A stretch of 64,000 nucleotides of DNA, taken from Amphibalanus amphitrite. Lineage: Eukaryota; Arthropoda; Thecostraca; Balanomorpha; Balanidae. The notes beneath the pieces are model-generated. The model worked only from the letters and a program-made list of their open reading frames with translations. It had not been told where the DNA came from and ran no database searches. The stretch's first letter is position 1. Every line of letters starts with the position of its first letter. The stretch is from contig NW_024881986.1 in assembly GCF_019059575.1 (NCBI RefSeq), positions 345,501 through 409,500 on the forward strand, read 5' to 3'. The position numbers and the translations under genes were made by a program. Shown in pieces: positions 8,301 through 64,000 of this stretch.

Positions 8301-11300
8301 AAAATGGTGCATAATATCCCAGTAAACATGCCGACGTCGGCCCGACGTCGGGCCGAGACTCGGCCCGACGTCGGCCCAACGTCGGTTCAACCTCGGCCCG
8401 ACATCGGCTGGACGTCGGATATGCCCGCATGTTCCGACGTCCAGCCGAAGTCCAGCCGACGTCGAGCCGACGTCGGGCCGAGGTCGTTTGCCGAGGTTGA
8501 CGAGATCGTTTGTCGTTGGACCGACGGGTCCGACGTCGGCATGTTTATTGGGACAACGCGCCAAAAATGTCAACCGGCGGCGGGATTCGAGCCCACCAGT
8601 CGCCGACGTCGGCATGTTTACTGGGACAACACGCCAAAAGCACCACCCGGTGATGGGATTCGAACCCAGTGTCATTTGAACGCGAGGTTAGTGCGCTAGC
8701 CACTACACCACGCAGCCAGTTAGCAAATTTAGTTTGTTTTGTTGGGTTATGCCCTTTCGGTCTGACAAGACCATTTCAGAGCCGGAAGGATGATTGGTCT
8801 TCTTGGCGAGCACCCTGGGTACAGTTCATATAGAGTCCCTGGTCCCATTGCTGTTACGTGACACTTATTGGAAAGGGCGACCCCACAATGGATTCATACA
8901 GCCACTCTTACACACCTGCACCAACGTTTCCCAAAGTGTCCCTTTGATTAGTGGCACTTTGGCAAAGTGACACTTGCCGACTGGCCTTTCTATATGAACT
9001 GGGCCCGGCCCTGGCGAGTTGCCGTGGCTGAGCCTGACCAAAGGATAGGCCGAGCAGCCCCCAAGCACTCACCGCACCCGGCTACGGGCGAGCTCGGCTT
9101 ACGGGCAATCCCAAATGGGATAAAGTTTCCCGTCCAGTCCGGATCAGGGGGTTGCGGCGTGGAGGAAGATTTGAGTTTTCTGAGGATCAATTTTGAATAC
9201 AGAAGCTCTTTATGAAACATGAAACATGTATTTTATATTATTTTAACGGTCAAAACAGCGGCCGATGTCGGTCCGACGTCGCCCCGACGTCGGCCCGACG
9301 TCGGCTGGACCTCAGCAATTGATCTCGGTCCGACGTCGGCTGGACCTCGGCTGGACGTCGGAACATGCGGGCATATCCGACATCCAGCCGACGTCGTGCC
9401 GAGGTTGGACCGACGTCGGGCCGACGTCGACATGCCGATGCCGAGTTGCCGACGTCACTCCGACGTCGGCCGACGTCGGGCCGACGTCGGCATGTTTACT
9501 GGGATGTTATATTCACATTTATTGGGGTATTCGGGGATATGAAGTAGCCTAACACCATTCCAGCAACTACTGGCGAATCCAGAAAGGCGGTCTTGGACGT
9601 TGCAAGGGGCATCCCCCAAAATATTCTCCCAATTCCAAAAACGACGTGTCCCAGCTGACCCCGATGACCTCCAATGAGCTCTGTGATGACCCCAAGTTGA
9701 TCTTTTTGACCTGACCTGTCCCAGATGACCTCCGTGACACCCTATTGAGCTCTCTGATGACTCCAAGCTGACCTCTGTGACCTGACGTGTCCCAGATGAC
9801 CCCCATGACCTCAAATAGAGCTATGTGATGACCCCAACATGACCTTTGTGACCTGACGTGTCCCAGATGACCTCCGTGACCTCCAATTAAGCTCTCTGAG
9901 GACTCCAAGCTGACCTCTGTGACCTGACGTGTCCCAGATGACCTCCATTTGAGCTCTGTGATGACCCCAACTTGACCTCTGTGACCTGGCGTGTCCCATA
10001 TGACCTCTGTAACCTCTAAGTGACCTCTATGATGACCCCAAGCTAACCTCTGTGACCTGACGTGTCCCAGATGACCCTCATGACCTCCAATAGAGCTCTG
10101 TGATGACCCCAAGTTGACCTCTGTTACCTGACGTGTCCCAGATGACCTCCGTGACCTCCAATTGAGCTCTCTAATGACTCCAAGCTGACCTCTGTGACCT
10201 GACGTGTCCCAGATGCTCTCCAATTGAGCTCTCTGATGACCTTTAGTTGACCTCTGTGACCTGACGTGTCCCATATGACCTCTGTGACCTCTAAGTGACC
10301 TCTCTGATGGCACCAAGCTGACCTCTGTGACCTGACGTGTCCCAGATGGCCCCAATGAATCAGAATCAGAATCAGAATCAGAATCAGTTTATTCGAAAAA
10401 GGTCCGCGTAAAACGGGGCTTTTCACTTTCTCACGTCAATCAGTAAATCAAAGCATTCTTCTAAAGCATCGATTCTAGATGCCCTATAGCCACGAATCTC
10501 CTGTGATGACCTTCAATGGAGCTCTGTGATGACCCCAAGTTGACCTCTGTGACTTGATGTGTCCCAGATGACCTCCGTGACCTCCAATTGAGCTCTGTGA
10601 TGACCCTAGGTTGACCTCTGTGACCTGACGTGCCCCCAAGTTGCCCTCTGTGACCTGACGTGTCTCAGATTACTTCCGTGGTCTCCAATTGAGCTCTGTG
10701 ATGACCCCAAGTTGACCTCTGTGACCTGACGTGTCCCAGATGACCTCTGTAACATCCAATTGTGACCTCCATCTACAAATTTCTTACCTCTCTGTGACCT
10801 CAAACTCTCGGAACTCAGTTCTTCTAAAGCATCGATTCTAGATGCCCTATAGCCACGAATCTCCTGTGATCGATCCCAAATTTTATGGCAAATCACGTGA
10901 GCGTTAGCAACCACAAGTCACCCAGTTAACCCGGCAGTTGCTGGGGTATTTCGCCACCCACCGTTTGCTGGGGGGGGGGGGGCGTTAAACGCCCCCAGCC
11001 GATAACTCGAGAACCAATAGGCGCAGCGAAACGCACGAGGCGGCAAACGTTTGATTTTCGGGGATATGTGCCTACCCGGTTGACCTGACCTTGACCCTGA
11101 CCTATGCTTGACTGACCCCTATATGGAGCTGACACTCTTGTAGGCCTTATAAGATGGATTGTGCACCGTTTTGACAGAGTTTATGGCGAGAGGCGCCCAT
11201 TGCGAAGTCCTGAAGTCCATGCTACTGAAAGCCCGATTTCAGGTGTTTGACCTGACCTTGACCCGACCTGTGATCTCAAAATTCAACTTTAAAGTACTCA

Positions 11301-17300: not shown

Positions 17301-20300
17301 AATCGTCTCTTCCAAGGCCGCGGATAACGCAGTCACTAAATCACTGCCGTATCCGATACTACACTCCTTTTCCGCTACGACACAACTTGCGACGGCATTG
17401 TGTCGCAACTTGCGACGTGTCGTAGATGGACTTGCGACGCCCTGGATCCCCCCGGCCTCAGCTATTGATAAGAGCAAGTCTACACAAAACGTATATCTTA
17501 GAATTAAGATATCGTTTACCTAAGATCGCGTCAATTTTACGACCTCTCTGAAAAAAAATTGAAAAGCTCCCTTTTGGACGAACGTCATTCTAAACACTTT
17601 CAAACATCGGATTACAAGTAAACATGACACACTGAACCGAAAAATGGCACCCGTGACCCCTCGCTATGTCCCTGAGGTCATCCCAGGTCACGAATGGTAA
17701 CCAACAGTTTTCGGCTAATAACAGCTTTCATGGTATAGGCACGCTAGAACGATGAAAGTGTCTTAGATGTGTTCCGCTCGACGATGTGGATTACGGATCG
17801 ACTGATATGCAGTACGCCCTGTCAGGCCATGGCCTTGACCTGAGGTCAAATTTTAAAGTTGACCTTTTAAGATCAAATTATAGTTTATTCGATGTGTTTT
17901 GATGATAGGAATACGGTGCTGCTCAAAGTAAAGTTGTGCTAATTTTTTATAGTAAAAAGTTGTTACCGAAAATCTGTTTCCACAAAAAACGTCTATTTTG
18001 ACAGTTTCTGCCCTCCTGCAGCATAAACCGTAGAAGCTAGGTTAAATCTTAGAAAATTAGTCAGGAAAAGCGTTAAAAGAGCCATTGAGTGCGCTTTTTC
18101 AGCGGGGCTCTATCCGTTCCTGAGCTATGCGCCGATTTGTCGAAAATTGTCGAAGTTTGACCTGGAAAATGGCGACACTTTATCTTTGGTGACCTCTGGT
18201 GACCTGACCATTGACCTGCCCTTAAATGTGACAGCAGTAATTTCTTCATTATTTTACGCTCTTTCGAACAGCACCTACAGCGTGTCGCTACGTGGCCCAG
18301 GAGCCGAGTTAGTAGGGAGTTGGACTGGCCAATTTCACCACTGGCCACTTTGATCACTGGCCATAACGATCATTTCCACAAATATGGCCTACACATTCCT
18401 TGGACACTTCAAACACAGGACACTCCATCCATATAGCCTCTTTTGGACAATATGAACCAGCTGGCCTGTGTGAAAATATCCTATTTGCGGCCAATTGGCC
18501 ACAATAGGACAATGAAATTTTGGGACGTTATGAACCATGTACCCAAGGCACTGGTCATTTCGAACACTTGGCACATCATGCCCTGGACATTATGAACCAC
18601 GGCCAGAATGAATGCTCCCCGTTCAAACACCCCCTCCCCAGTAGGGCTTTGAAATCCAGGACCCCAGAGGGTCGCGGGTTAAAAACGCCCCCCCCCCCTC
18701 CGTCACGACGCGGGTTTACGGATAATTGTATCCCTCTTCACAGGATCCGGGATGACTGAAACGCCGGTGGATCACCCCCGATGGCCGACGTCTGGACTGG
18801 ATGTTGTTATACGGCTAGCGACGGACACACTTCTGGACCAGCTGGCTGTTTTGGCGACCCACACAGTCACAGGACTGGCAATAGTTGGTGAGCAGCAGCA
18901 TGAGTAAAGTATAGAAAGTTACGAAGTGTTGTGTATGTTGCATTATGAACGGGAGATGTTACTCTTCTGTTGTCTCAAATTACTCTAAAAGAATACAAAA
19001 CTCATTGCGCCTGTCGTCCGGCTCTCGCCGGTATTGCATGCCTGTGGTGTCGCGACTGGGGCGCTAATTCATCGTTCGGTTAGGCACCTCAACAGCGACG
19101 AGCTCGATTTGCTCGAGGTTAACCAGTTAGAAGTGTGGCCCACATCAAGGAGTTCAGATTAAATGCTTGTGAGTTGTGGAGAACCCGATATTATGCGTTA
19201 CGCGCTTCGTAATTATTTTATCTTACTGCTGGGATCTAGGCCACGGTGATCGCAACGTGTGTACATAAGCACTTATGGCTTCTGTATTTATGTTTTACAG
19301 ACTCACCTTTCGTGACACCGGAAGCGACGGTACGCCTCCTGGCTGCCCTCATCAGCTTGAAGGACGTCACTTTTATCGGATCCGGCGTCATTTGCGACAC
19401 TGTGCTAGCCGCCCTCCACGTCTGCTGCCAGCTGGATACGGTGCAGCTCAAAGACACCCGGCCCCTCACGGACATCCCTGCCCTGACCCAGTCAGAGGTG
19501 GCAGCGGTCAGCAGGTCAGTCGGCCGGACGGCGACGGCGGATATTAGGTGTATCTGGATAGACCGCAATAACCCCAGCGATAACCGTATTCGTTGGAGGT
19601 ATACATAGGAGTACGGGCACAGGGACGTTGAAAATGAATAAAGCAATACAGACACTTTGATGCAAGTAATTAAATGTATATGAACACAAACAGACAGACA
19701 GACGGACGGGCAGATACGTAACTGCGCTGGTACTATTTTAATATAATATAGAAATAATGTATGTGGGGTCAGGGGTGGCATAAAACTCATTGTATCGTGT
19801 GAAACATTTGTAGCAAACTGCAGCACCAGACTGGGCCAACTTGAGATGGCCGGAGGCACACATGTTCTGTTATGAACGACATTGTAAATACATGGTGTCT
19901 CCGTGTTGAGTCGACCGCTGGTGCCACTGTGTGACTGTGTCCCGTATACTGACCTGTTCTGTTTTGTTATGATCTGTTGCAGGATGGCAGTGACCTGCAG
20001 GAAACTGAAGACACTGTTAATTGGATCCTCAACTGAAAACTACCAGGCCGTCCTGACCGCCCTGCACGAGACAGACCTGGGATGTGACAGTGGCCAGTCC
20101 CGTACCATCGATTTCAAGGTCCCAAGTAAGTGACCTCTGCCTCTGACCACCCACACCAGCCGACACGGCGCCACCGGCCTCTCGGACACACACTGACGCA
20201 CGTGACGTCACCAGTACTGACGTCACACTTGGTGACGTGTATCCCCGTAAGTGGCGTCACGATATCAGTATCAGCCCTCATGACGTCATTACTCAGTGAT

Positions 20301-21227: not shown

Positions 21228-22434
21228 CCCAGTAGACATGCCGACGTCGGCCCGACGTCGGCCGACGTCGGGGTGACGTCGGCAACTCGGCATCGGCATG
21301 CCGACGTCGGCCCGACGTCGGTCCAACCTCGGCACGACGTCGGCTGGATGTCGGATATGCCCGCATGTTCCGACGTCCAGCCGAGGTCCAGCCGACGTCG
21401 GGCCGACGTCGGACCGAGATCAATTGCTGAGGTCCAGCCGACGTCGGGCCGACGTCGGGGCGACGTCGGACCGACATCGGCCGCTGTTTTGACCGTTAAA
21501 ATAATATAAAATACATGTTTCATGTTTCATAAAGAGCTTCTGTATTCAAAATATCCTCAGGAAACTCAAATCTTCCTCCACGCCGCAACCCCCTGATCCG
21601 GACTGGACGGGAAACTTTATCCCAGTTGGAATTGCCCGTAAGCCGAGCTCGCCCGTAGCCGGGTGCGGTGAGTGCTTGGGGGCTGCTCGGCCTATCCTTT
21701 GGTCAGGCTCAGCCCCGGCAACTCATCAGGGCCGGGCCCAGTTCATATAGAAAGGCCAGTCGGCAAGTGTCACTTTGCCAAAATGCCGCTTATCAAAGGG
21801 ACACTTTGGGAAACGTTGGTGCAGGTGTGTAAGAGTGGCTATATAAATCCATTGTGGGGTCGCCCTTTCCAATAAGTGTCACGTAACAGCAATGGGACCA
21901 GGGACTCTATATGAACTGGACCCAGGGTGCTCGCCAAGAAGACCAATGTCTCCATCCTATGATCCTTCCTTCCGGCTCTGAAATGGTCTTGTCAGACCGA
22001 AAGGGCATAACCCAACAAAACAAACCAAGTTCGTTAGCTGGCTGCGTGGTGTAGTGGTTAGCGCACTAACCTCGCGTTAGAATGACACGGGGTTCGAATC
22101 CCATCGCCGGCTGATGCTTTTGGCGTGTTGTCCCAGTATGCGACGTCGGCGACTGGGGGGCTCGAATCCCGCCGCCGGTTGATATTTTTGGCGCGTTGTC
22201 CCAATAAACATGCCGACGTCGGCCCCGTCGGTCCAACGACAAACGATCTCGTCAACCTCGGCAAACGATCTCGGCCCGACGTCGGCTCGACGTCGGCTGG
22301 ACTTCGGCTGGACGTCGGAACATGCGGGCATATCCGACGTCCAGCCGATGTCGGGCCGAGGTTGAACCGACGTTGGGCCGATGTCGGGCCGAGCCTCGGC
22401 CCGACGTCGGGCCGACGTCGGCATGTTTACTGGG
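21228..22434. mobile_element. CGACGTCGG inverted-repeat element, copy B
   Basis: This is the inverted counterpart of 8318-9503 over its whole length. The ends are CCCAGTAGACATGCCGACG and the reverse complement of CCCAGTAAACATGCCG. The terminal palindromic arrays differ in length from copy A. Flanks suggest a TA duplication. Confidence 0.75.
22040..22112 (+). tRNA. tRNA-like pseudogene inside repeat
   Basis: A-box TGGTGTAGTGGTTAGCGC and B-box GGTTCGAATCCC are spaced as in a tRNA, but pairing is incomplete and the anticodon loop is abnormal. A second isolated B-box (GCTCGAATCCC) follows at about 22159, so a tRNA-derived unit was duplicated and its front part lost. Confidence 0.5.
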
Positions 22435-25691: not shown

Positions 25692-27710
25692 AAGTCCCTA
25701 AAAGAACGGGAAGTGATGCCGATAGAACCTTCAACCATTCTGGGCTAACGCTTATGACTTGGAAAAAGTCGCGATCCCAATTCAATCGAAAACCTGTGGG
25801 CTCTTGTTCAGCAGTCGTTTGTCAAAGCAGTTAAGTCATCAGCACAAGTGTCTCCTGTCTTGGAATGTGACGGTCGTGTATATCGGGGAGATGGCGAGCG
25901 TGCGAACTGTTTGAACGCTTGTTTTGCCCGTAAGTTTAGCGACCCGGCGGTTGATGCACTGCCGGTGGCGCCGGTGCTCGGTGCCCCTGGAACAGACCGC
26001 TTCACTGTGCCGCGAGGCCGGGTCGCTCAGTTACTGCGGGAGCTGTCCCCGCACAAGGCCTGTGGCCCAGACGGCCTTAGCGCTCGCATTCTGCGTGAAT
26101 GTGCTGATGAGGTAGCCGTCCCACTTGAAATCATTTGTGAGATGTCTGTTTCTTGTGGGTACTTCCCATCCTATTGGAGACAGGCTAATGTTGTTAGCAT
26201 TCATAAGAAAGGTTCCAAGAAAATCCCTGACAATTACCGAGCCGTTTCCTTGCTCTCAATTTGCTCAAAAGTCCTAGAGAAGGTAGTTTTGGAGAATCTC
26301 CTGCCGGTCTGTCTTCCTGCCATCCCCGCCAACCAGCATGGATTCCTGCCAGGCCGCTCATGTGTTACTAACCTGTCCTGCTTCCTTGATCACTGCTGGT
26401 CCTCCATTTCCAAAGGTAAACAGACAGACGCCATTTACACCGACTTTTCGTCCGCCTTCACGTCTGTAAACCATGTCCTACTTCTTCATAAACTCCGCTC
26501 ATCCTTTCACATCACTGGCACTGCTCACTCCTGGCTTACATCCTATCTCAGCGATCGCATGCAGCGCGTTGTTTTGAACGGCAAGCATTCGGCGTGGACT
26601 GCTGTGCAGTCAGGCGTGCCCGAAGGCAGCATTTTGGGACCTTTGTTGTTCGCGTGCTTTGTTGCTGACATCCCGAAGTGTATGGAGACTGGCTGCCTGT
26701 TATATGCAGATGATGTCAAGCTGTTTCACCGAGTGGGGTCCGATGATGATGTTGCTTTACTTCAGGCGGACTTAGACAAGCTTCACGACTGGTGTAAAAC
26801 ATGGAAACTAAAACTCAATCCGGTTAAATGTCAAACGATCACTTTCACCCTTAGGACAACTCCCATTAGGTCGACATACAGGGTTAATGGTCATGTGCTT
26901 AATCGTTGTCAGGAGGTGCGCGATTTAGGCATCCTTTTGGACGCAAGGCTTACGTTTTCGCAGCATGTTGATGCCACCATACGGAAATGTAACAAGATGT
27001 TAGGCCTAATAATGCGCAGTGTACAGTTGCCTCGATGTCCCCGGCGGGTCAAATTCAATCGAACTGCGCTGCTTGCCGCCTACAAAGCTCACGTCCGCTC
27101 AATTGCTGAGTACGGCAGCGTTGTCTGGAGCGGTGCAGCAAAGACTCATCTTGTGCGGCTCGAGCGAATGCAGCATCGTTTTTTGATGTGGCTGGCATCA
27201 AACTCCGACGGAGACGGCTCCAGTCTTGATTACGTGTGTCTCCTGAACCGCTTTGGTTTGTGCTCGATTAAGTCACGCTTTGTACAGACCGATCTTTCAT
27301 TTCTAGTCAATGTGTATCGCAATAGGATTGACTGCCCTTACCTGATGGCAATCTTCGGACTAGCAGTCCCCAACAGACGCTCTCGACAGACAGGGCTGTT
27401 CCACGTACCGTTCGGTCGCGTGGACACTGTGAAGTCAGGGTTCACTGTCCGTATCCCTGTGCTATGTAACCGCTTCTTGCAACATACACCCACCGCTGAC
27501 ATGTTGGCATCATCGGGCTCCGTTTTATCGGACATCCGTGAGTTTGCTCGTTCTCAGGGAACGTACATGTAATGTGTTGTCATCGTTGTGTGCATGTGTT
27601 GTGTTGTGTTACCTAGTTTAAATTGACTGCCACTGTAAATGGGCTGCAAGGCCTGTAGTCGGTTAATGCAAATACAGAATACAGAATACAGAATACAGAA
27701 TACAGCAGGA
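25692..27710 (+). mobile_element. 5'-truncated non-LTR retrotransposon
   Basis: A reverse-transcriptase frame is followed by a short 3' end and a tail of about four AATACAG units (27667-27703), the LINE-type 3' microsatellite. The endonuclease region is absent: the preceding TTAA element ends at 25691. A TTAA insertion into a longer copy or simple 5' truncation could explain this. Confidence 0.8.
25758..27572 (+). CDS. non-LTR retrotransposon reverse transcriptase
   Basis: The frame is open from about 25758, just after an in-frame TGA, and clearly coding from 25848 to the TAA at 27570-27572. Counting from 25848 as residue 1, it shows an HKACGPDG block (69-76), a KKG..K..DNYR block (120-131), QHGFLPGR (163-170), motif A with D199 in YTDF, SGVPEGSILGPLLF (255-268) and the catalytic YADD (286-289). 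A thumb/connection domain follows. Motif A has AFTSV where AFDTV is usual. The lack of stops over 574 codons suggests a young insertion. The clade (CR1/RTE/Jockey-like) cannot be settled by eye; the upstream endonuclease is missing. Confidence 0.88.
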   Translation, partial: LGKSRDPNSIENLWALVQQSFVKAVKSSAQVSPVLECDGRVYRGDGERANCLNACFARKFSDPAVDALPVAPVLGAPGTDRFTVPRGRVAQLLRELSPHKACGPDGLSARILRECADEVAVPLEIICEMSVSCGYFPSYWRQANVVSIHKKGSKKIPDNYRAVSLLSICSKVLEKVVLENLLPVCLPAIPANQHGFLPGRSCVTNLSCFLDHCWSSISKGKQTDAIYTDFSSAFTSVNHVLLLHKLRSSFHITGTAHSWLTSYLSDRMQRVVLNGKHSAWTAVQSGVPEGSILGPLLFACFVADIPKCMETGCLLYADDVKLFHRVGSDDDVALLQADLDKLHDWCKTWKLKLNPVKCQTITFTLRTTPIRSTYRVNGHVLNRCQEVRDLGILLDARLTFSQHVDATIRKCNKMLGLIMRSVQLPRCPRRVKFNRTALLAAYKAHVRSIAEYGSVVWSGAAKTHLVRLERMQHRFLMWLASNSDGDGSSLDYVCLLNRFGLCSIKSRFVQTDLSFLVNVYRNRIDCPYLMAIFGLAVPNRRSRQTGLFHVPFGRVDTVKSGFTVRIPVLCNRFLQHTPTADMLASSGSVLSDIREFARSQGTYM

Positions 27711-29635: not shown

Positions 29636-29741
29636 ACGTGGTGAACGTGGGACCTGAAAAAGTTGCACCTCTATGTAATATGTGGGTTCGATATACTGTG
29701 TGACGTTCCAAGAACTATTTGGGAAAAGTTGCACCTCCGGA

Positions 29742-29970
29742 GAGACGGACGGACGGACGGAGAGACGGACGGACGGACGGAGAGACGGATGGACGGACGA
29801 AGAGACTGATGACGGACGGACGGAGAGAGTGACTGATGGACGGACGGATGGAGAAACGGACGGACGGATGGACGGACTGAGAGACGGAAGGGCGGACGGA
29901 CGGACGGACGGACTGAGAGACGGAAGGGCGGGCGAACGGACGGAGAGACGGACAAAGAGATGGACAGACG

Positions 29971-30033
<63 letters not shown>

Positions 30034-30039
30034 GTGAGT

Positions 30040-30138
<99 letters not shown>

Positions 30139-30155
30139 GAGGTGAGAGAGAGAGA
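29742..30155. repeat. GGAC tetranucleotide and GA dinucleotide satellite
   Basis: GGAC units interrupted by GAGA pass into a nearly pure GA tract (about 29973-30135). The long frames on both strands here are repeat artefacts. Confidence 0.9.
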
Positions 30156-31186: not shown

Positions 31187-31290
31187 GTGGTTGTAGCCAG
31201 GCTGGCACGGTCCACCGACATCAAAACAACGGTGCGTCAGCTGATTATTGGTCCTCCGATTCAGGAGAAATTATTAACGCGGGAACGCCG

Positions 31291-32683
31291 CACAGTGGGC
31301 CAGGCGCTTCAAAAAAGCGGAATTAAATCAATGAGCACAGCTGCGGTGCCAAAAATGATTCGTTACAGGGTAAAATATCATGCTAAAGCCGAATCCGATA
31401 TCCATTTTCAAATTTGATTGGTTACGCTAGGTCACTGACCTATGACGTCATTATTTAATTTCTGCGCTGCACATATGCCTGGGACAGGCGGGCACTATGT
31501 CGCATTGGCCGCGCGTTTGCAGTCTTTTCGTGGTTTCAAGCGTTCAAACATGTGATATGATGTTGGTCCCATGCATTAGGGTGGGTGTAAAGGTCGCCTG
31601 AAGGTCAGGTCAGGTCATTCACCTTCGATGACCTCGGTTCACTTTTTCGAGTTTTACATGTTTCTGGGCTAGTTTTTGGAGCTGAATTCGAATTTAGGAA
31701 CCATTTGAACATTTACGAAGTAGTTTTGGTGCCTTCGTAACATGTTACGAAGCTGTCAGAGGCGGGTTGACACCTACTACGAATACCCGGCAGGACCCAT
31801 ACTGGTTGACCTGACCTGAGCTGACCCGACCTGGCCTAAATGCATGAAGACATCATCTGTGATCAAAACTAACATGATATTCGTGATCAGCATCCCGAAA
31901 AACCCCTTAGCAGCCACACTATACGACGTTCTAACAGGTCCCGATTTTCGGCCATTGACCTGACCTCAGAGGTTACCATTTGACCTATGACCTTAAAACC
32001 GGGTACTGTTGGCTTCGTCTCGTGACGACCTACACGATGGTTTTTTTCCGCGAGGCTCTAGCTTAATTAGGCGCCAAACGCGAGGAGGGTCGCTTCCCCC
32101 TGTGCCGTCGAGGGATGCAAAACGGCCTATGCCGGCGAGGGTTAAACCCTTATTTGTCCATTTCGCGCAAAAATGCGCAAAATATTTGCATTGGGCAGCA
32201 AGCTATACACCTTGAGGAAAGTCAGGCAGCATATATCTTCGTGTTGTTCGGTGACGTTTTCTTTATATCCTTATATAAATTCATTGCGTCGTTGCACTAC
32301 TACGGTTCCGAACAGGCACTGTAAACCCCACCGCTACTAGTAAGCATGAAATAGTTCCCGGGAACTTGAGTACGAGAAACATGCGCAGAAATACCGACTG
32401 TTTTTTTAAAGCTATTTTGTACGGAATAATTTTAATGATTTTACGCTGAGAGCTTTTGAATCGGGGGAACGGAATATGGCACACAGCAGTCATTTCCATC
32501 TCCAGTCGGTAAGTCCTACTTTGCGACGTTATAGCATTATCTGCCTTGACATTGGGGAAAGGAAACTTGCTTATTCAGAAACTTTGTACATTTTTACAAT
32601 ACTCTATCCCATAATTACAGGAATTTCACCGAAGTTGATTTTCGACTTAATTCCGCTTTTTTTGATGCGCCTGGCCCACTGTG
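31291..32683. mobile_element. Transib/RAG-like non-autonomous element
   Basis: Both ends read CACAGTGGGCCAGGCGC inward, with similarity over about 38 bp. The target duplication is CGCCG at 31286-31290 and 32684-32688. A 5-bp GC-rich duplication (CGNCG-like) and CACNRTG termini are hallmarks of Transib. CACAGTG is also exactly the heptamer of V(D)J recombination signals. There is no transposase; the interior includes a TTAA-family sequence. Confidence 0.78.
31500..32145. mobile_element. TTAA-CCC element, left end degraded
   Basis: Collinear with 43260-43941. The right end is intact (GCCGGCGAGGGTTAA, TTAA at 32142-32145). The left half with its hairpin is missing or replaced. It lies wholly within the Transib-like element. 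Confidence 0.65.
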
Positions 32684-32688
32684 CGCCG

Positions 32689-40115: not shown

Positions 40116-40834
40116 CCTATCACATAGAGAAGTGTCCAATAGGCCTTTCGGTTGTTTTACTAACCTCTAAAACGTGGTGAATATTGACGTAACGTTTATC
40201 ACTCAGTTCTAATCAATACCCTTACCTGAAAACGTTCGTGGTCCGACCATTGACCTTTGAAATTATGCATTGTTTAAAACAATATTCGACAAGAATGGTG
40301 GGTCGCCGCATATAGCGCATATAATCTGTACGTGCAACTCAATTTTGCAAGTAGTAATGAGCCAAAAAAAGGAATGAGGTTTGCTCTCTGGCTTATTGTA
40401 GCGTCAAGGTCATTCAATTTTGATGAACTTGTCTTGATGAGCACCTTTCTGAAGTTGAAGCTCTTGGGTATGCATTTAAGAATTTTATTGTGATGCTCCA
40501 AATTTGGACGGTTGTGGTGGTCAGCGGTCAAGTGATGACTATCAGTTGACTATACCAGAACTAGTGTCGCCCCCCACGGCTCCACGGCCTAGAGTGCCGC
40601 CATTTTCAATGAGTTGCCCCACCCCAAACGTTCCGCTGGATCCGCCACTGCCATCAATTGAAGTATTCATACTCGTCCCAGTCGGTCCACTGATACCTTA
40701 TCGGTGCAGAGATACCGTATCGGCTACAGCAATGTCACGAGCCCCGTACAGGGTGTCGATAGGGACAACACTGACATTGAGGCCCCGGGCGTCGGACAGT
40801 GCGACCTGGAGAGGAGCGATTATCTGACCCCGTG

Positions 40835-41345
40835 TGACCTACCGAGACAAGGTATACTGGCCTGGAGAGGAGCGATCTGCTGAGACATTGGAACCCACCG
40901 AGACAAGGTATAGTGACCTGGAGGGGAGCGGTCTAACGAACCTGTGTGACCCACCAAGACAAGGTATACTGACTTGGAGAGGAGCGCGGTCTGCTGAGAC
41001 CTTGGAACCCACCGAGACAAGGTATAGTGGCCTGGAGGGGAGCGGTCTAACGACCCCATGTGACCTACCGAGACAAGGTATAGTGACCTGGAGAGGAGCG
41101 GTTTTCTGATCCCATGTGACCCACCAAGACAAGGTATAGTGGCCTGGAGAGGAGCGGTTTTCTGACCCCATGTGACCTACCGAGACAAGGTATAGTGACC
41201 TGGAGAGGAGCGGTCTAACTACCCCGTGTGAGCCACCGAGACAAGGTATAGTGACCTGGAGAGGAGCGGTCTATCGAACCTGTGTGACCCACCGAGACAA
41301 GGTATACTGACCCGGAGGGGAGCGGTCTGCTGAGACCTTGAAACC
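40835..41345. repeat. 56-60-bp tandem repeat, about nine copies
   Basis: Units contain GAGACAAGGTATAGTGACC and TGGAGAGGAGCGGTCT. In copy 2 only a remnant remains around 54885-55090, split by a hAT MITE. Open frames here are repeat artefacts. Confidence 0.85.
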
Positions 41346-48602: not shown

Positions 48603-49338
48603 TATAAAGCAGTTGGATCTTACTACTGCGCTTTTCCACTATTCCTTTATTGCACTCGCTTGTCCGTTTCCCAAAAAGGCGTCCGTCTTGTTGGTATAGC
48701 ATATATTGCTGATAATATTATTCATCTTCAGTTCCAGCCATTCCAGTCGGTATGTGTGTCTGTCTTTATGTTTTACAGACTCACCGTCCGTGACACCGGA
48801 AGCGACGGGACGCCTCCTGGCTGCCCTCACCGGCTTGAAGGACGTCACTCTTGTTGTATCAGGCGTCATTTCCGAAACTGTGCTAGCCGCCCTCCACGGC
48901 TGCTCCCAGCTGGATACGGTGCAGCTCAGTGACACCCGGCCCCTCGCGGACATCCCTGCCCTGACCCAGTCAGAGGTGGCAGCCGTCAGCAGGTCAGTCG
49001 GCCGGACGGCGACGGCGGGTATTAGGTGTATCTGGATAGACCGCAATAACCCCAGGGATGACCGTATCCGTTGAAGCCTTGGAGGTATACATAGCAGTAC
49101 GGGCACGGGGACACTGGAAATGGAAACAAACGCGTTACAGAAGAATAGGCATCCAAAGACAGGCTTATTTATTCAGGTGATTGTGTTGATGCGATGCAAA
49201 CAGACAGACAGACGGACAAACGGACGGGCAGCTACGTTATCTGGACTGGACTGGTATTTTATATACATGTGGGCATAATATTGAGTGGTATAATGCTCAT
49301 ATACATAGTATCGTGTGAAACATAGTATCGTGGAGTCT

Positions 49339-57055: not shown

Positions 57056-59882
57056 TCAACGGCACTCTTCCTCCAGGAAGCAGATCTTTGCTGCTGGTCT
57101 GGTGTACGTCTTTCCGCAGGAGGTCCGTAGCGCAGCTGACCGGACTCTTCCGTCCTTACCCGGGAAGACCTGAACGATCCTGGCCAGAGGCCATGCTCCT
57201 CTGGGCAGATCGGACTCAGCCATGAGGACCAGGTCCCCTACTTGAAGGCTTCTTCTTTCCTGGCGCCACTTGCTCCGCTGTGTCAAAGTCGGTATGTATT
57301 CTCGAGTCCACCTTTTCCAAACGTGTTTAGCCACAGCTTGCGACTGTCTCCACCTCCGACGGCTGCACATGTCGTTGTCTCTTGTCAGGACTGGTGCCAG
57401 GTGTGGGGAAGCACGACCAAGCAGGAAGTGGTTAGGAGTCAATGCTTCGGGATCAGATGGATCGGAGCTCACATAGGTAAGTGGGCGGCTGTTTATCATG
57501 TGTTCGACCTCCGCGAACACAGTCAGGAGAACTTCATCGGTCAGCAGCTGAGATCCGACGACTGCCTGCAGGCACGTCTTGACCGACCTCACCATCCTTT
57601 CCCAAACACCACCCATGTGGCTGGCCGTTGGTGGATTGAACCTCCAGTCAATCTCCAAGGCGCTCAGGCGCTCAGGCATCTGCGCTAGCAGCACCTTCAG
57701 CTCTTCGCGTAGTTCACGGTTGCTGCCGATAAAGCTGGTACCGCGGTCCGAGAAGATAACTGCTGGCTGGGATCTGCGAGAGAAGAAGCGTCTGAGGGCC
57801 ATGATGCAGCTGTCCACTTCCAGCGAATGTGTCACCTCCAGATGAACAGCACGGGTCGCCAAGCACGTTATCAGCAGTCCGTATCGCTTCTCAGTTCTTC
57901 GGAACCGCTTCACTCGCAGTGGTCCAAAGTAGTCCACACCCACGTTCTTGAACGGATGATCGGCTTCGAGTCTCTGAGCGGGAAGCTCAGCCATCCTTGG
58001 TGGCGCCGGAGCAGCTCTGCGTCGATGACAATAGAGGCAACTGCGGAGCTGCTTCTTCACCTCTGCACGTCCTTGGGGAATCCAGAACTTCTGCCGTACT
58101 TCATTCAGCGTGTGTTCTGTCCCCGCATGACCATGACGGACATGCTCTTGCATGATGATGAGCCTGGCGAGCTCGCTTTTCCTCGGCAGTATGATCGGAT
58201 GTCGGGACTCCTCGGGAATAGATGCTTTCCCGATGCGTCCTCCAACACGGACCAGGCCATTGCTGTCGCAGATCGGTGTCCGCGAGAGCAGAGGACTGGA
58301 GGTCTGGATCGGCTGTCGCTGTTCCAGACATCGGAGTTCTTCCCCGTACGTTGTGAACTGCTCTTGTCTGATGATCCAGACTTCGGCCTCCACCATCTCA
58401 GAGCGTGATAGTGGACCTGATAATGGAGGTTGTCGGCCAGGCAAGAACGCCTTCAGGTTGTGCACAAAACGCTTGATCCAGCCGACAACTCGCTTGTACT
58501 TGATCCACGATGAATACTTCGCTGGGTCCGGTTCTTCTGGTCGTGTTGATGCTGCGATGACATTCACTGACGTCGCCTGTTTTTGTTCTTCGTTGTCTGC
58601 CAGTTCTGGATGCTTTTCCAGTTTCCTTTCTGTTGATGTTAGCCGGTAGTACGCCTGTCTTGAGTTGTCGGGGAACGTCGGATTTTCCTCACTCCACAGC
58701 AAGCAGGTTTCGTATCTCTCCCCGACCTTTTTGGTTTCTTGATCCAGAAGAGCCAATGCACGGAGATCTTCTCGAGATCTTGCGTCCTTGACGTTGATCT
58801 TCGTGCCGAAGGCTTCAGTGGTCCACCACTCTTGAACCAGCTCACTCAGGTTCTCTTCATCTGTTGACTGTTTGCGTACAAACATGACGTGCCGCGTACT
58901 ACGGCGTACCAGTGGCGACACAGATCCAGTCAGGGTCCAACCGAAATCTGTCCTCACTGCGACCGGTTGGCCGGTACCTCCCACTCTGATCTCCCGTTGC
59001 AGGACAGCTTCCAGTATGTTGGCCCCGAGCAGCAGCTCGACACGTGCACCACTGTACTGAGGAAAGTCGAGACCCTGCAGATGATTCCAGCTGGAGGTCT
59101 GTCGTCGGCTGATGCTGGGTGGAGTGACATTCAATCTTGGCACAGACCAAACTTCCGGGATTACGATGTGGCCCTCTTTGGCATCGGCAGAAATAGGGCT
59201 GACTGTCAACGGAACACGGATGGATGACTGTCTCTGTCCGCTTCCTTCGACGTTCTGAAGTCTGAGCTCTTCACGCTCCCCCTTCACACCGATTTCTTGC
59301 AGCACCTTCTCACAGCAGAGTGACGTTTGCGCCCCCGGATCCAGAAGAGCGACAACATCCTTGTCACCGCTCGGGCCGTGAACTCTGACAGGAACCAGTT
59401 GTAGAAGCGTGTCTGTGGCTTCCGTCATGGCTGCACCAACGATCGGATCTTCTCTGTTCAGGCGATTCTCTGTTCTGCCGCTGCTCTCCCCGCCCCCTGA
59501 ATCACCTCTGGGCGTATGTAGAAGCTTGTGATGTGTCGCCCTGCATCCATCTGTGCCACAGCGCTTGGCAGATCTACACGATCTGACGAAGTGCCCCTTC
59601 CTGAGACACGCCCAGCACAGTCGCTCCCGTCTCACAGTCACGAGCTTTTCCTCCAGCGCCTGGGCTTGAAAATCAGGACAGTTTTCCAGTTTGTGCTCCC
59701 CTTCGCAGACGACGCAGGGCCTGAGCCTATGGCTTTCCTCACGCGGTGAGGATGCGGAAGTGGCCAATGTCGTCCGCCTCGTCATGGTCTCTTTCGGAGT
59801 CACCACAGTCTTCCTCTTTTCGGGGTCACGGCTCGGGCGAGTGGTGTAGCTCAACACGTTCACCTGGATCTTCAGCCACTCG
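57056..59882 (-). CDS. BEL/Pao pol polyprotein lacking RT/RNase H
   Basis: The open frame runs to 60016, but codons upstream of 59882 belong to the inserted hAT. Residues are counted from 60016. CCHC-type knuckles lie at about 101-150; an aspartic protease with DPGAQ (226-230) follows. Around residue 470-485 the frame jumps from the pre-RT linker straight to a post-RNase H KYSSW region (500-504), so RT and RNase H are gone without loss of frame. The integrase HHCC-like zinc domain (about 605-665) and catalytic D695, D757 and E806 are intact, followed by the C-terminal DUF5641-type domain. Family pols are usually several hundred residues longer. The element would need RT from a relative. Confidence 0.88.
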
Positions 59883-62875
59883 CAAGGGCGGCGCCACCGT
59901 GGGGGCAGTGGGGGCAGGCTGCCCCCACTGGCAGGAGGCCGTGGGGGCAAGACTATGTTTTTGCCCCCACAAAATTTGGCTGATATTGACAAGGGAACAG
60001 AAGACCGGTGCAACATTCATGATAGGCGGTTATAATAGTACGACTGTTTTAGACGGTCCCCGTATCAAGTGCATCAGCAGAACGTTCGTTCTCGGACCGT
60101 CTGTCGCATTTCTCCTACTCCCACTCATTCTCCTACTCATTTTCATTCAACAGAAGGCTGCACTCGCCCCTCGAGCTTGACCTCCAGGAGGTTGAGAGGC
60201 AGTTTGTCAAAAGTCGGCCAGAGAAGAGATCACCCTCTTTTGGGAACCCTTAGACTGACACTGAGACTGAGCTCAGGGAGGTATGACAAAATGTGATAGG
60301 TATGTATGTTCGGGTTATCTGGTAATGTATGTGGGTCGCCCTAATGGAGCTTATTCTGGTATAGGTATCAATCGTGTGTGAGAGAATCGCACATATACGT
60401 TCTACGGGAAAGAGAGAACTAGGTATCGACTATTGTTGTGAGGAATACGCCATTTTACATCTCAACGAACAACATAACGTTTTCACAGGTTTGTGTCACG
60501 CAAGTCGCAATCTAGTTTTATAGTTTTATTTGTTCGCGACCCTAACCCGTCCGGGCCCGGGGGTAATCCTAACCACCGCAGCCCGGGGTAGCCCCCCCCC
60601 CTCCCCCACCTGTCTAACAACGTTAATAAGGCAGCTACAGAAACAAAAATGGTACCAAACGAAAGATATCTACGAGAAGATTCTAAAGCACCTAAACTTT
60701 TTGACCTCAGGCCAATTTTCAAGGTCAGAAGTCAAGGTCAAAGGCAAAAACCGGCACTTTTGTAGTGGTCTCACTCAAAGTACGTGTTCCAGAGGACGGC
60801 ATGGTGTATAAAACCGGCTAAAATGGATGGTAAACGAACGAAGAGAGTCTGGGGATTCGGATTCCGATGATGTGCATAACATTCAAATTCAAGGTCACGG
60901 TTATGCGCAAAACTGACCACAAACTTTGCATTTTTCTTATATCTTGTATACTAGATTCCGCGATGTTTTGAAATGTTTTGGAGCTTAGCGGACCCTTATT
61001 TGTGCTTAAGCTTACGATACAAGGCTGGTAGGGGAGAGCGGGGCCAGTTGAAACACGGGGTCAGATGAAACATGGCTTTATTTTCAACAGTATGCAACAT
61101 ATGGCGTTGCCGACACCACTGCGCATCCGCGCTCGACCACTTCCTTTGTCAACGGCGTTTGGGCGGCAAACGGACGTTAATTTTGATTTGACACTTGTTT
61201 TTGTGTTTTTGTGGGGCGTTTGGGAGAAATCGTTTTTATGAATATTTTGTGATATCTCATATACCTTTGTTTGCTGAAAGAAGAACTCCTGGCTCCGGAA
61301 TAACACTTTATTTGGCCCTTCATTCAGCATGATGCCGTCCCTCCAGCTCGTTTGACAGGTGCTTTACGGCGCGTGCGAGATGGCGGGAGCGGATGGGGTC
61401 AATTGAAACGCTTCTCTGAGGGTCAGTTGAAACAGGGCCACAGGCCGTTTCAATGGACCCCGGTGACCTTTGCAATGGTTATTGTTCAGGGGCTGTAAAC
61501 ATTAAAGGAAATAGTCCACCTTTGAAATGAGCTTTTAAACTGAAATAGTAGTTTAATAGAGCTCAACTTTTGACCCCTTTTTCTCCAGCCTTTTGCTTGA
61601 AAGCACACTATAGCCTGAGATATTTCTCATTTTCCTCATCCGCCCATTTTACCATAGTCTATGTACTTTATGTCACCTATTATGAGGAACTTTGCACTTC
61701 TAGCTTTCCAACGACCTATTGAATGTAGCATTTGGAAAAGTAAACCGGACAAAATATCTCCTTAAGAAAGTGGCCTTAAAGAGGAAAACATCTCATTGTT
61801 AAGGATAGGTGCAATTGACCCCATGGGCTGGTTCAATTGACCCTCGCATCGGGGTCATTTGAAACGGGTGTAGAGCTGTTTTATAAGCGTGCGTTTGGCA
61901 GCAAAATATGTTTGAAACATAATTTTACATATCTTAAAATAAAGCCAAAAGAGCATATTTTTTCATGGCATTGTGCATTTTTCGATATGACAACTAGATC
62001 TCGCTGTGCATGTCAATATATAAAAAGTGGTTCAACTGGCCCCGCTCTCCCCTACAGAGCACAGGGTCAAAGTCACAAGAGTATCCTTGCTAGAGACTAT
62101 TTCACTTATACAACTCAGGCATAATAATTAAGACATGTTTTGCCATCCTGATGCTCTAAATGAATGCTTATAGCAAAATGGATTCCAGAATCATGACCAG
62201 TGGCTACGAAATCATCACAAACGACCTTTCATGTGTAAAAGTCAACCAAAGGTCATTCGAGGTCACATGAAGTCAACATAAAACTTGACCTTTTCCAAAC
62301 AATTTACATGTATGTCATTCGACGCGTCTCGACAAGACGAATGCGAAGGTACCACTGCCGCAGCTCTAGGACCATTTTTGCTGAAGTTATTTGCGAACTA
62401 AACTAAAATCCCAGCTCAGGGTCGTTGACCTGACCTCTGACCTGAGGTCACCAAAAATACTTAAGTAATTTTTCTAGGTCAATTGCTACACAACCGTGCT
62501 CGTAATTTGTCTTTATCTCTAAAACTCTATTTTGGGCATCTGATTGAAGTTTACGTCTGTGACGACTGACGTCGAAGTTTGCCGTGCAGGAGTCTAGAAA
62601 AATCGGCCCTGAGACGTTATCAAGGAGGCTAGGTCCAATTTGTTTGCTTCAAAAGATGTCAAATTAATGGGGGATAAGGTACAGTAAGTTTCGTCTTTCT
62701 ATCCCTAAGCGTTCGTGAGGTATCGGAAATATTCGCCAGGGGGGAGGCGAAAACGCCCCCCCCCCTTCCCTTCCGGGCCCGCGATGCTCATGGATTTTGC
62801 AGATCGGCGTATCAGACAACAGTCGGGTCACCTCAATCTTGCCCCCACTGGCGAAAATTCGTGGCGCCGCCACTG
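59883..62875. mobile_element. non-autonomous hAT element inside BEL/Pao
   Basis: The right end reads GTGGCGCCGCCACTG; the left end CAAGGGCGGCGCCAC. Both have GGGGGCA/TGCCCCC runs inside. The exact 8-bp duplication GCCACTCG is at 59875-59882 and 62876-62883. Its interior carries an AGGTCA-rich stretch, a TA-type MITE (61031) and a TTAAAGGAAATAG end (61502) but no transposase. Confidence 0.85.
61031..62052. mobile_element. TA-duplicating MITE with GTTTCAA motifs
   Basis: GGGGAGAGCGGGGCCAGTTG and its complement (GGGGAGAGCGGGGCCAGTTGAACC) form the ends, flanked by TA at 61029-61030 and 62053-62054. Inside, GGGTCANTTGAAAC motifs recur about eight times in both orientations. No coding frame. Confidence 0.75.
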
Positions 62876-63995
62876 GCCACTCGCTAAACATCTCCAGATT
62901 GGGCTGGTTTGGTCGCATCCTGTAGACTTCTTGGCCCCACTGATAAGTCAGCTCGTCAGGGAGCTTGGCAATCACTCTGCGGAGGGTGTCGCTTGCCCCC
63001 AGATCATGATAGTAGCCCAGGGCTCGCAGAGTCATGACCGTGTTGCTGATGGCGGAGCTGAACCTCTCCATTGACGCCAAGCTATTCACACTTGGTGCTG
63101 GGGTAGAAAACATCTGATTGAGACTTGCCTGGCTGATTTCGTCTTTCCGACCGAAACGTTCATATAGCGTCTTCAGTGCTTGCTCGTACAGCGATCCATC
63201 AAACAAAAGCCCTTCAATGGCTTGGTGGGCAGGGCCCTCAACTGCTTGCTGCAGATGAGTCATCCGCTCTGCATTCGTCAGCGATGTCTGATTGTGGACC
63301 AGCACTTTAAAGAGGCTGATCCAACGAGGCCAGTCAGCGGGATCCCCTCGATAGGTGTGGAGGCTGAGGCTCGGTACACTCTTGGAGAACGCTGTTGACT
63401 GACTCGAGCGTGCTTGCTCTTGAGAAACATCTGGAATCATCCAGGTACTGGGATCTAGGGTTGTGGTTGCACTTCCAGCTGAGGCCTCAAGTGGTGCCCC
63501 AGTCGCAGCTTGATCGGCTGTCGTCGGCTGCACGGCGTCGTTCACAGCGCAGTTTTCGTATGCCAAATGGTGTGTGGCAGCGGCGTGACCTTCCTGCCGC
63601 TCGTCCCTATGTTGATCACGCTGAGAGTGCATGCCGCAGTTACCCATGGATGTCGCAGTGCCCTCACAGACACCTTCACGTGTTGGCTTTGCTTCTTCTC
63701 CCATCCCAGCGACAGCTTCGTCAAAGTCATGACGACGATCCCAATTCAGGTCATCTTCAGCAGCGCGATAGAGACGGACCTTTCTTGCTGCTCGATTTCG
63801 AGTCTCTTCAGCTATCTTCAGCTGAAGTGCACTGTCGCGCTCTTGAAGCTCCCACTCTTCTTGTTGTCGGAGATTCTCCATTTCGAGCTGAGCTTCACGT
63901 TGGCGTTTCTCCGCCCTTTGCCTCTCCATCATGTTACGGCGACTTTCTTCTACCTGGGCCCTGACGTCTTGTAGCTTGCAATCCGCATCCTCCAA
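62876..63995 (-). CDS. BEL/Pao Gag (DUF1759-type), partial
   Basis: The frame runs in from the right edge and leaves the element at 62876, where the hAT insertion begins. The N-terminal part is a charged coiled coil (Arg/Glu/Gln-rich, first ~110 codons seen). A low-complexity linker follows, then a capsid-like region with FKVLVH and ERMTHLQQAV motifs typical of DUF1759 Gag. The frame on the far side of the insertion is in register once one target duplication is discounted, so insertion was recent relative to decay. The true start is outside the window or at 63995. Confidence 0.8.
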
Positions 63996-64000
63996 TTCTA

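Follow-up and report, generated by a model that had tools for sequence, protein, structure and literature searches.

Transib transposons form a family related to the enzyme by which vertebrate antibody genes are rearranged. A repeat in the genome of Amphibalanus amphitrite, both ends of which begin with the V(D)J heptamer CACAGTG, raises the question of which class of transposon it belongs to and how far its ends resemble the signals of V(D)J recombination. The repeat lies in a stretch of 64,000 nucleotides of contig NW_024881986.1 (positions 345,501 to 409,500, assembly GCF_019059575.1), which was analysed as a whole and is hereafter called the window. Very probably, as set out below, the repeat is a single non-autonomous copy of a Transib-type DNA transposon, an element that moves by cut-and-paste.

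Structure and coding content of the element

The element comprises 1393 bp at window positions 31291-32683, with inverted ends of 39 and 40 bp and the pentamer CGCCG on both sides, directly before 31291 and directly after 32683. The left end, read from 31291 in the window sequence, is CACAGTGGGCCAGGCGCTTCAAAAAAGCGGAATTAAATC, and the right end, read as the reverse complement from 32683, is CACAGTGGGCCAGGCGCATCAAAAAAAGCGGAATTAAGTC. An earlier note on this DNA had given the coordinates exactly, including the CACAGTG start of both ends, the CGCCG target duplication at both flanks, and the locations of two A-rich blocks (31310-31318 and 32656-32664). The features of the locus are as follows:

31286..31290, + strand: left target-site duplication CGCCG, from the window sequence (exact 5-bp duplication in 60/63 elements)
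31291..32683, orientation arbitrary: whole element of 1393 bp, very probably a non-autonomous Transib-type DNA transposon
31291..31329, + strand: left terminal inverted repeat of 39 bp (the consensus arms match at 37/39 positions counted from the tip)
31291..31297, + strand: left terminal heptamer CACAGTG (61/63 left ends)
31310..31318, + strand: left A-rich block CAAAAAAGC, the nonamer-like block of the earlier note
31330..32643, no strand: interior, in which no credible gene was recognized (72 codons in the longest ATG frame; 10 frames Pfam-scanned)
32644..32683, - strand: right terminal inverted repeat, 40 bp in the window copy (one A more than the consensus)
32656..32664, - strand: right A-rich block CAAAAAAAG with seven A's (six in the consensus)
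32677..32683, - strand: right terminal heptamer CACAGTG (63/63 right ends)
32684..32688, + strand: right target-site duplication CGCCG, from the window sequence and the copy survey

According to the repeat finder, the outer 31 nt of the inverted ends, including the duplication, were 94% identical, and the inner 19 nt were 95% identical. Within the window, the 17-nt end CACAGTGGGCCAGGCGC was found only at the two ends of the element when up to 3 mismatches were allowed, with 0.09 matches expected by shuffling. The window was also scanned for CAC...GTG inverted pairs (14-nt inverted ends with up to 2 mismatches, 150-6000 bp apart) accompanied by an exact 5-bp flanking repeat, and this element only was returned.

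No credible gene was detected in the element, the longest ATG frame of which has 72 codons. Ten of the 38 frames of at least 30 codons were compared with Pfam; no family was above the cut-off, and one match was at chance level (E 0.091). Since there is no credible gene inside, the element is considered non-autonomous. Nine broken or lengthened copies (C1, C7, C11, C170, C182, C361, C405, C471, and C1241) were considered as candidate autonomous relatives. They consist of pieces of the element continuing across other sequence, and C361 and C1241 have one flank in common. No coding relative of any transposase class was recognized on inspection of these nine copies, and they were rejected as autonomous relatives, being the element interrupted by other sequence. 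A tblastn search with a Transib motif against 84 records (320,622 bases) yielded nothing better than E 3.5, and a 20-nt element end had no matches in a viral contig collection. The Transib C-terminal motif gave 47 matches in the viral contigs and 172 in the genome contigs, none of which was confirmed as a relative in these two collections, both of which may omit records near the genome itself.

Copy number and age of the family

The genome search with the element end proposed in the earlier note was performed over 807,550,619 bases (808 Mb) in 2644 contigs and recovered full-length relatives. With up to 3 mismatches allowed, a 26-nt pattern of the end matched at 108 places in forward and 112 in reverse orientation; the reversed pattern, used as a control, matched nowhere in either direction. 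From these end matches, the family is estimated at about 110 elements; the places of 100 of the 220 matches were listed. In a DNA search, the 40 copies that were scored among 4812 first-look candidates were 97-100% identical to the element. The alignment spans positions 1-1393 in 33 of them and 1-1360 in one, and the remaining six align over shorter stretches from the left. Examination of 70 loci gave 63 elements with both ends, the other seven loci having no second end long enough to match.

The mean divergence from the consensus was 0.73% (range 0.36-1.29) across 56 copies, an alignment that leaves out L037, the flanks of which repeat those of L035, and six elements outside the length range of 1360-1410 bp. 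The 56 copies contain 297 transitions and 268 transversions, and at 15 sites the same variant is shared by at least four copies. The window copy, which differs from the consensus by 1.15%, is among the more diverged ones. An earlier sample of 33 full-length copies had a mean divergence of 0.71%, with the duplication in 32 of them. The low divergence of the 56 copies indicates recent activity, and we read it, together with the shared variants, as a recent burst of the family.

The copies of two pairs, L035/L037 and L047/L048, lie on different contigs with identical 20-base flanks and may be segmental duplicates or unmerged haplotypes in the assembly. Partial matches to the element interior were observed near full copies at two loci, namely at the edge of L029 (element positions 213-475, 89.7% identity) and at 319-453 of L052 (element positions 665-799, 79%). 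These are perhaps older relatives.

Ends, target sites, and the likely transposase

The heptamer CACAGTG begins 61 of the 63 left ends and all 63 right ends; the two remaining left ends read CACATTG and belong to copies that share flanks. The consensus arms, derived from 33 full-length copies, agree at 37 of their first 39 positions. Copies lacking a 5-bp duplication had been named in the earlier note as grounds against its reading, and a count was suggested there: an exact 5-bp duplication flanks 60 of the 63 elements, is absent from three (L022, L050, and L066), and extends to 6 bp in none. This ground does not apply to the family. After L037 was dropped, its flanks repeating those of L035, 59 nonredundant duplications were available. 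In these, the first position is C in 48, the second G in 49, the third any base, the fourth C in 43, and the fifth G in 49. The motif CGNCG accounts for 22 of the 59, versus a background of 0.77% in the flanks. The base just before the duplication is C in 32 cases and the base just after it is G in 39, and the joined flanks give the palindromic target (C)CGNCG(G).

The full rule for Transib ends is CACWRTG-like. Three marks of Transib transposons, inverted ends starting with CAC, a 5-bp duplication, and a GC-rich CGNCG-like target, were found here. Passages of published reports describe the same features: PMC7204232 gives CAC-starting ends for Transib, PMC4735498 names CGNCG as the site used by transib in moths, and 5-bp duplications are reported in PMC3276498 for 532 of 533 hopper and 7 of 7 transib2 sites in Drosophila, together with the palindrome CCANTGG. 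The preference of Drosophila Transibs for CCANTGG differs from the CGNCG of the present family, the palindromes being of the same design in other letters, and a CGNCG-like target is neither unique to Transib nor common to every Transib. Judging from the same passages, the likeness to known Transibs (hopper and transib2 of Drosophila; HzTransib of Helicoverpa zea, PDB 6PQN and others) comprises the 5-bp duplications, the GC-rich or palindromic target, and the CAC ends. The element differs from them in having no transposase gene, and the comparison concerns the end rule, the duplication length, and the target. A Transib-like character at the DNA level, as proposed in the earlier note, is thus supported by the CACAGTG ends, the 5-bp duplications, and the CGNCG bias; the part of that proposal which did not stand is the parallel with a 12-RSS, treated in the next section.

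According to the proposed mechanism, a Transib transposase encoded by an autonomous relative at another genomic locus would bind the 36-40-bp ends and cut exactly 5' of each CACAGTG. The freed ends would then be joined to opposite strands of the GC-rich palindromic target (C)CGNCG(G), at points 5 bp from each other, and gap repair would produce the 5-bp duplication. From known Transib biochemistry, we infer that the enzyme would be a Transib one, acting by nick-and-hairpin cutting and supplied in trans; mobilisation in trans by a Transib transposase appears most likely.

A transposon of the RAG-like (RAGL) type, which carries RAG1L and RAG2L genes, is unlikely to have mobilised the element in place of a plain Transib. 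Such transposons (RAGL/ProtoRAG) have CAC-starting ends, 5-bp duplications, and non-autonomous copies in common with the element, as described in part of PMC7204232. The RAG1/2 enzyme also takes 5-bp GC-rich targets, and an excerpt of PMC11844651 reports a structure of RAG1/2 in which the 5-bp target is CGCCG, identical to the duplication of the window copy. Because RAG1/2 was captured on this target, the target bias alone cannot separate Transib from RAG and counts less against a RAGL origin. Beyond CAC, the protostome RAGL consensus CACTWMCAAACKTYKBB, given in a passage of PMC7204232, fits CACAGTGGGCCAGGCGC poorly when compared by eye; the element has GGC in place of the conserved AAA of positions 8-10. 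This comparison concerns protostome RAGL ends only. No convergent RAG1L and RAG2L genes lie between the ends of the element, which has no credible coding frame. We likewise give a low probability to the possibility that the master is a RAGL transposon (RAG1L and RAG2L) bearing the exact vertebrate heptamer CACAGTG at its ends, or that the host belongs to a Transib-lacking lineage, such as the vertebrates, from all of which Transibs are stated to be absent in a section of PMC8355894. In either case, if true, a recently active source of canonical-heptamer ends would stand nearer to V(D)J recombination than is known so far.

Another cut-and-paste superfamily (e.g., a hAT subgroup, CACTA, or Chapaev) ending in CACAGTG by chance is less probable still. 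Several superfamilies do start with CAC or CAG. The duplications, 5 bp long in 60/63 elements, differ from the 4-bp ones of Chapaev. They also differ from those of hAT (8 bp) and CACTA (2-4 bp), as listed in an excerpt of PMC9033116, and the target palindrome agrees with the Transib passages in PMC4735498 and PMC3276498.

The Transib assignment thus remains the preferred one, and the family adds a clean member to a kind of element already known rather than defining a new one. Gene-less Transib-class elements have already been recorded in Helicoverpa: part of PMC9033116 lists Transib-class MITEs that are likewise non-autonomous, with inverted ends and 5-bp duplications, at lengths of 75-564 bp compared with 1.39 kb here. 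The present family is recently active, has about 110 copies with the V(D)J heptamer at its ends, and shows a target, (C)CGNCG(G), derived from 59 nonredundant insertions. It offers usable natural data for the study of end and target choice by Transib-type transposases. The accepted history of RAG is unchanged by it.

Comparison with recombination signals and other features of the window

The consensus recombination signal sequence (RSS) has the heptamer CACAGTG and the nonamer ACAAAAACC. The element shares this heptamer with the V(D)J RSSs of jawed vertebrates and differs from them in having no significant nonamer, in its symmetric ends, and in being a dispersed mobile repeat. The reading of the ends as 12-RSS-type signals (heptamer, 12-bp spacer, and nonamer) is extremely improbable. 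Both ends do have a perfect CACAGTG, and in the window copy the left end scored 6/9 against the nonamer at spacings of 11, 12, and 13, and the right end 6, 5, and 7 of 9. A score of 6/9 was obtained at 39 of 1273 element-interior positions (3.1%) and at 3.4% of window positions. When the left end was shuffled 100,000 times, at least 6/9 was reached by chance at spacings 11-13 in 8.9% of cases, and in 17% when spacings 22-24 were added. The two ends are copies of each other and are not independent tests of the nonamer. Six A's are present in the A-rich block of 59/63 left and 58/63 right ends, and the 7/9 of the right end needs the seventh A, which occurs in 2 of the 63 copies (the window copy and one other). 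The block is not singled out, since the inverted repeat around it extends as far as position 39.

Pairing with a 23-RSS was not found: both ends have the same layout and spacing, and the consensus ends are identical at 37 of 39 positions. Because of this common layout, there is nothing like the 12/23 asymmetry of some Transibs that is stressed in a passage of PMC8355894. The 12-RSS parallel, which the earlier note had itself described as weak and possibly due to chance, was rejected on the basis of the shuffles (8.9%), the rarity of the seventh right A, and the symmetry of the ends.

A AAAAAAATC block at spacing 23 scored 7/9 at the left end (0.6% of shuffles) and 4/9 at the right end of the window copy; it was noticed post hoc and is not claimed as a signal. 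Such a block reportedly belongs to an end consensus published for Transib. Kapitonov and Jurka 2005, said to be the founding paper on Transib and RAG, reportedly gives a Transib end consensus.

Other repeats were observed in the window. A 604-codon open frame at 25758-27572 (+) has an RVT_1 reverse transcriptase domain (E 3.3e-30) and is apparently a LINE-type retrotransposon. Long frames at 57056-60016 (-) and 62664-63998 (-) contain DUF5641 and Integrase_H2C2, with DUF1759 in the second, an arrangement that we take to be that of BEL/Pao LTR retrotransposons. Two closely similar open frames at 19240-19608 and 48700-49074 (+), which form a repeated protein-like segment, had no Pfam match at E 0.001. 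Tandem arrays are numerous, including those at 9643-10358, 29738-30155, and 40803-41345. The window arrays include units of 71/142/275 bp and 56/112 bp, GA/GACG runs, and 11-bp CCGACGTCGGC-like arrays near 8331-9491, 21240-21480, and 22271-22421.
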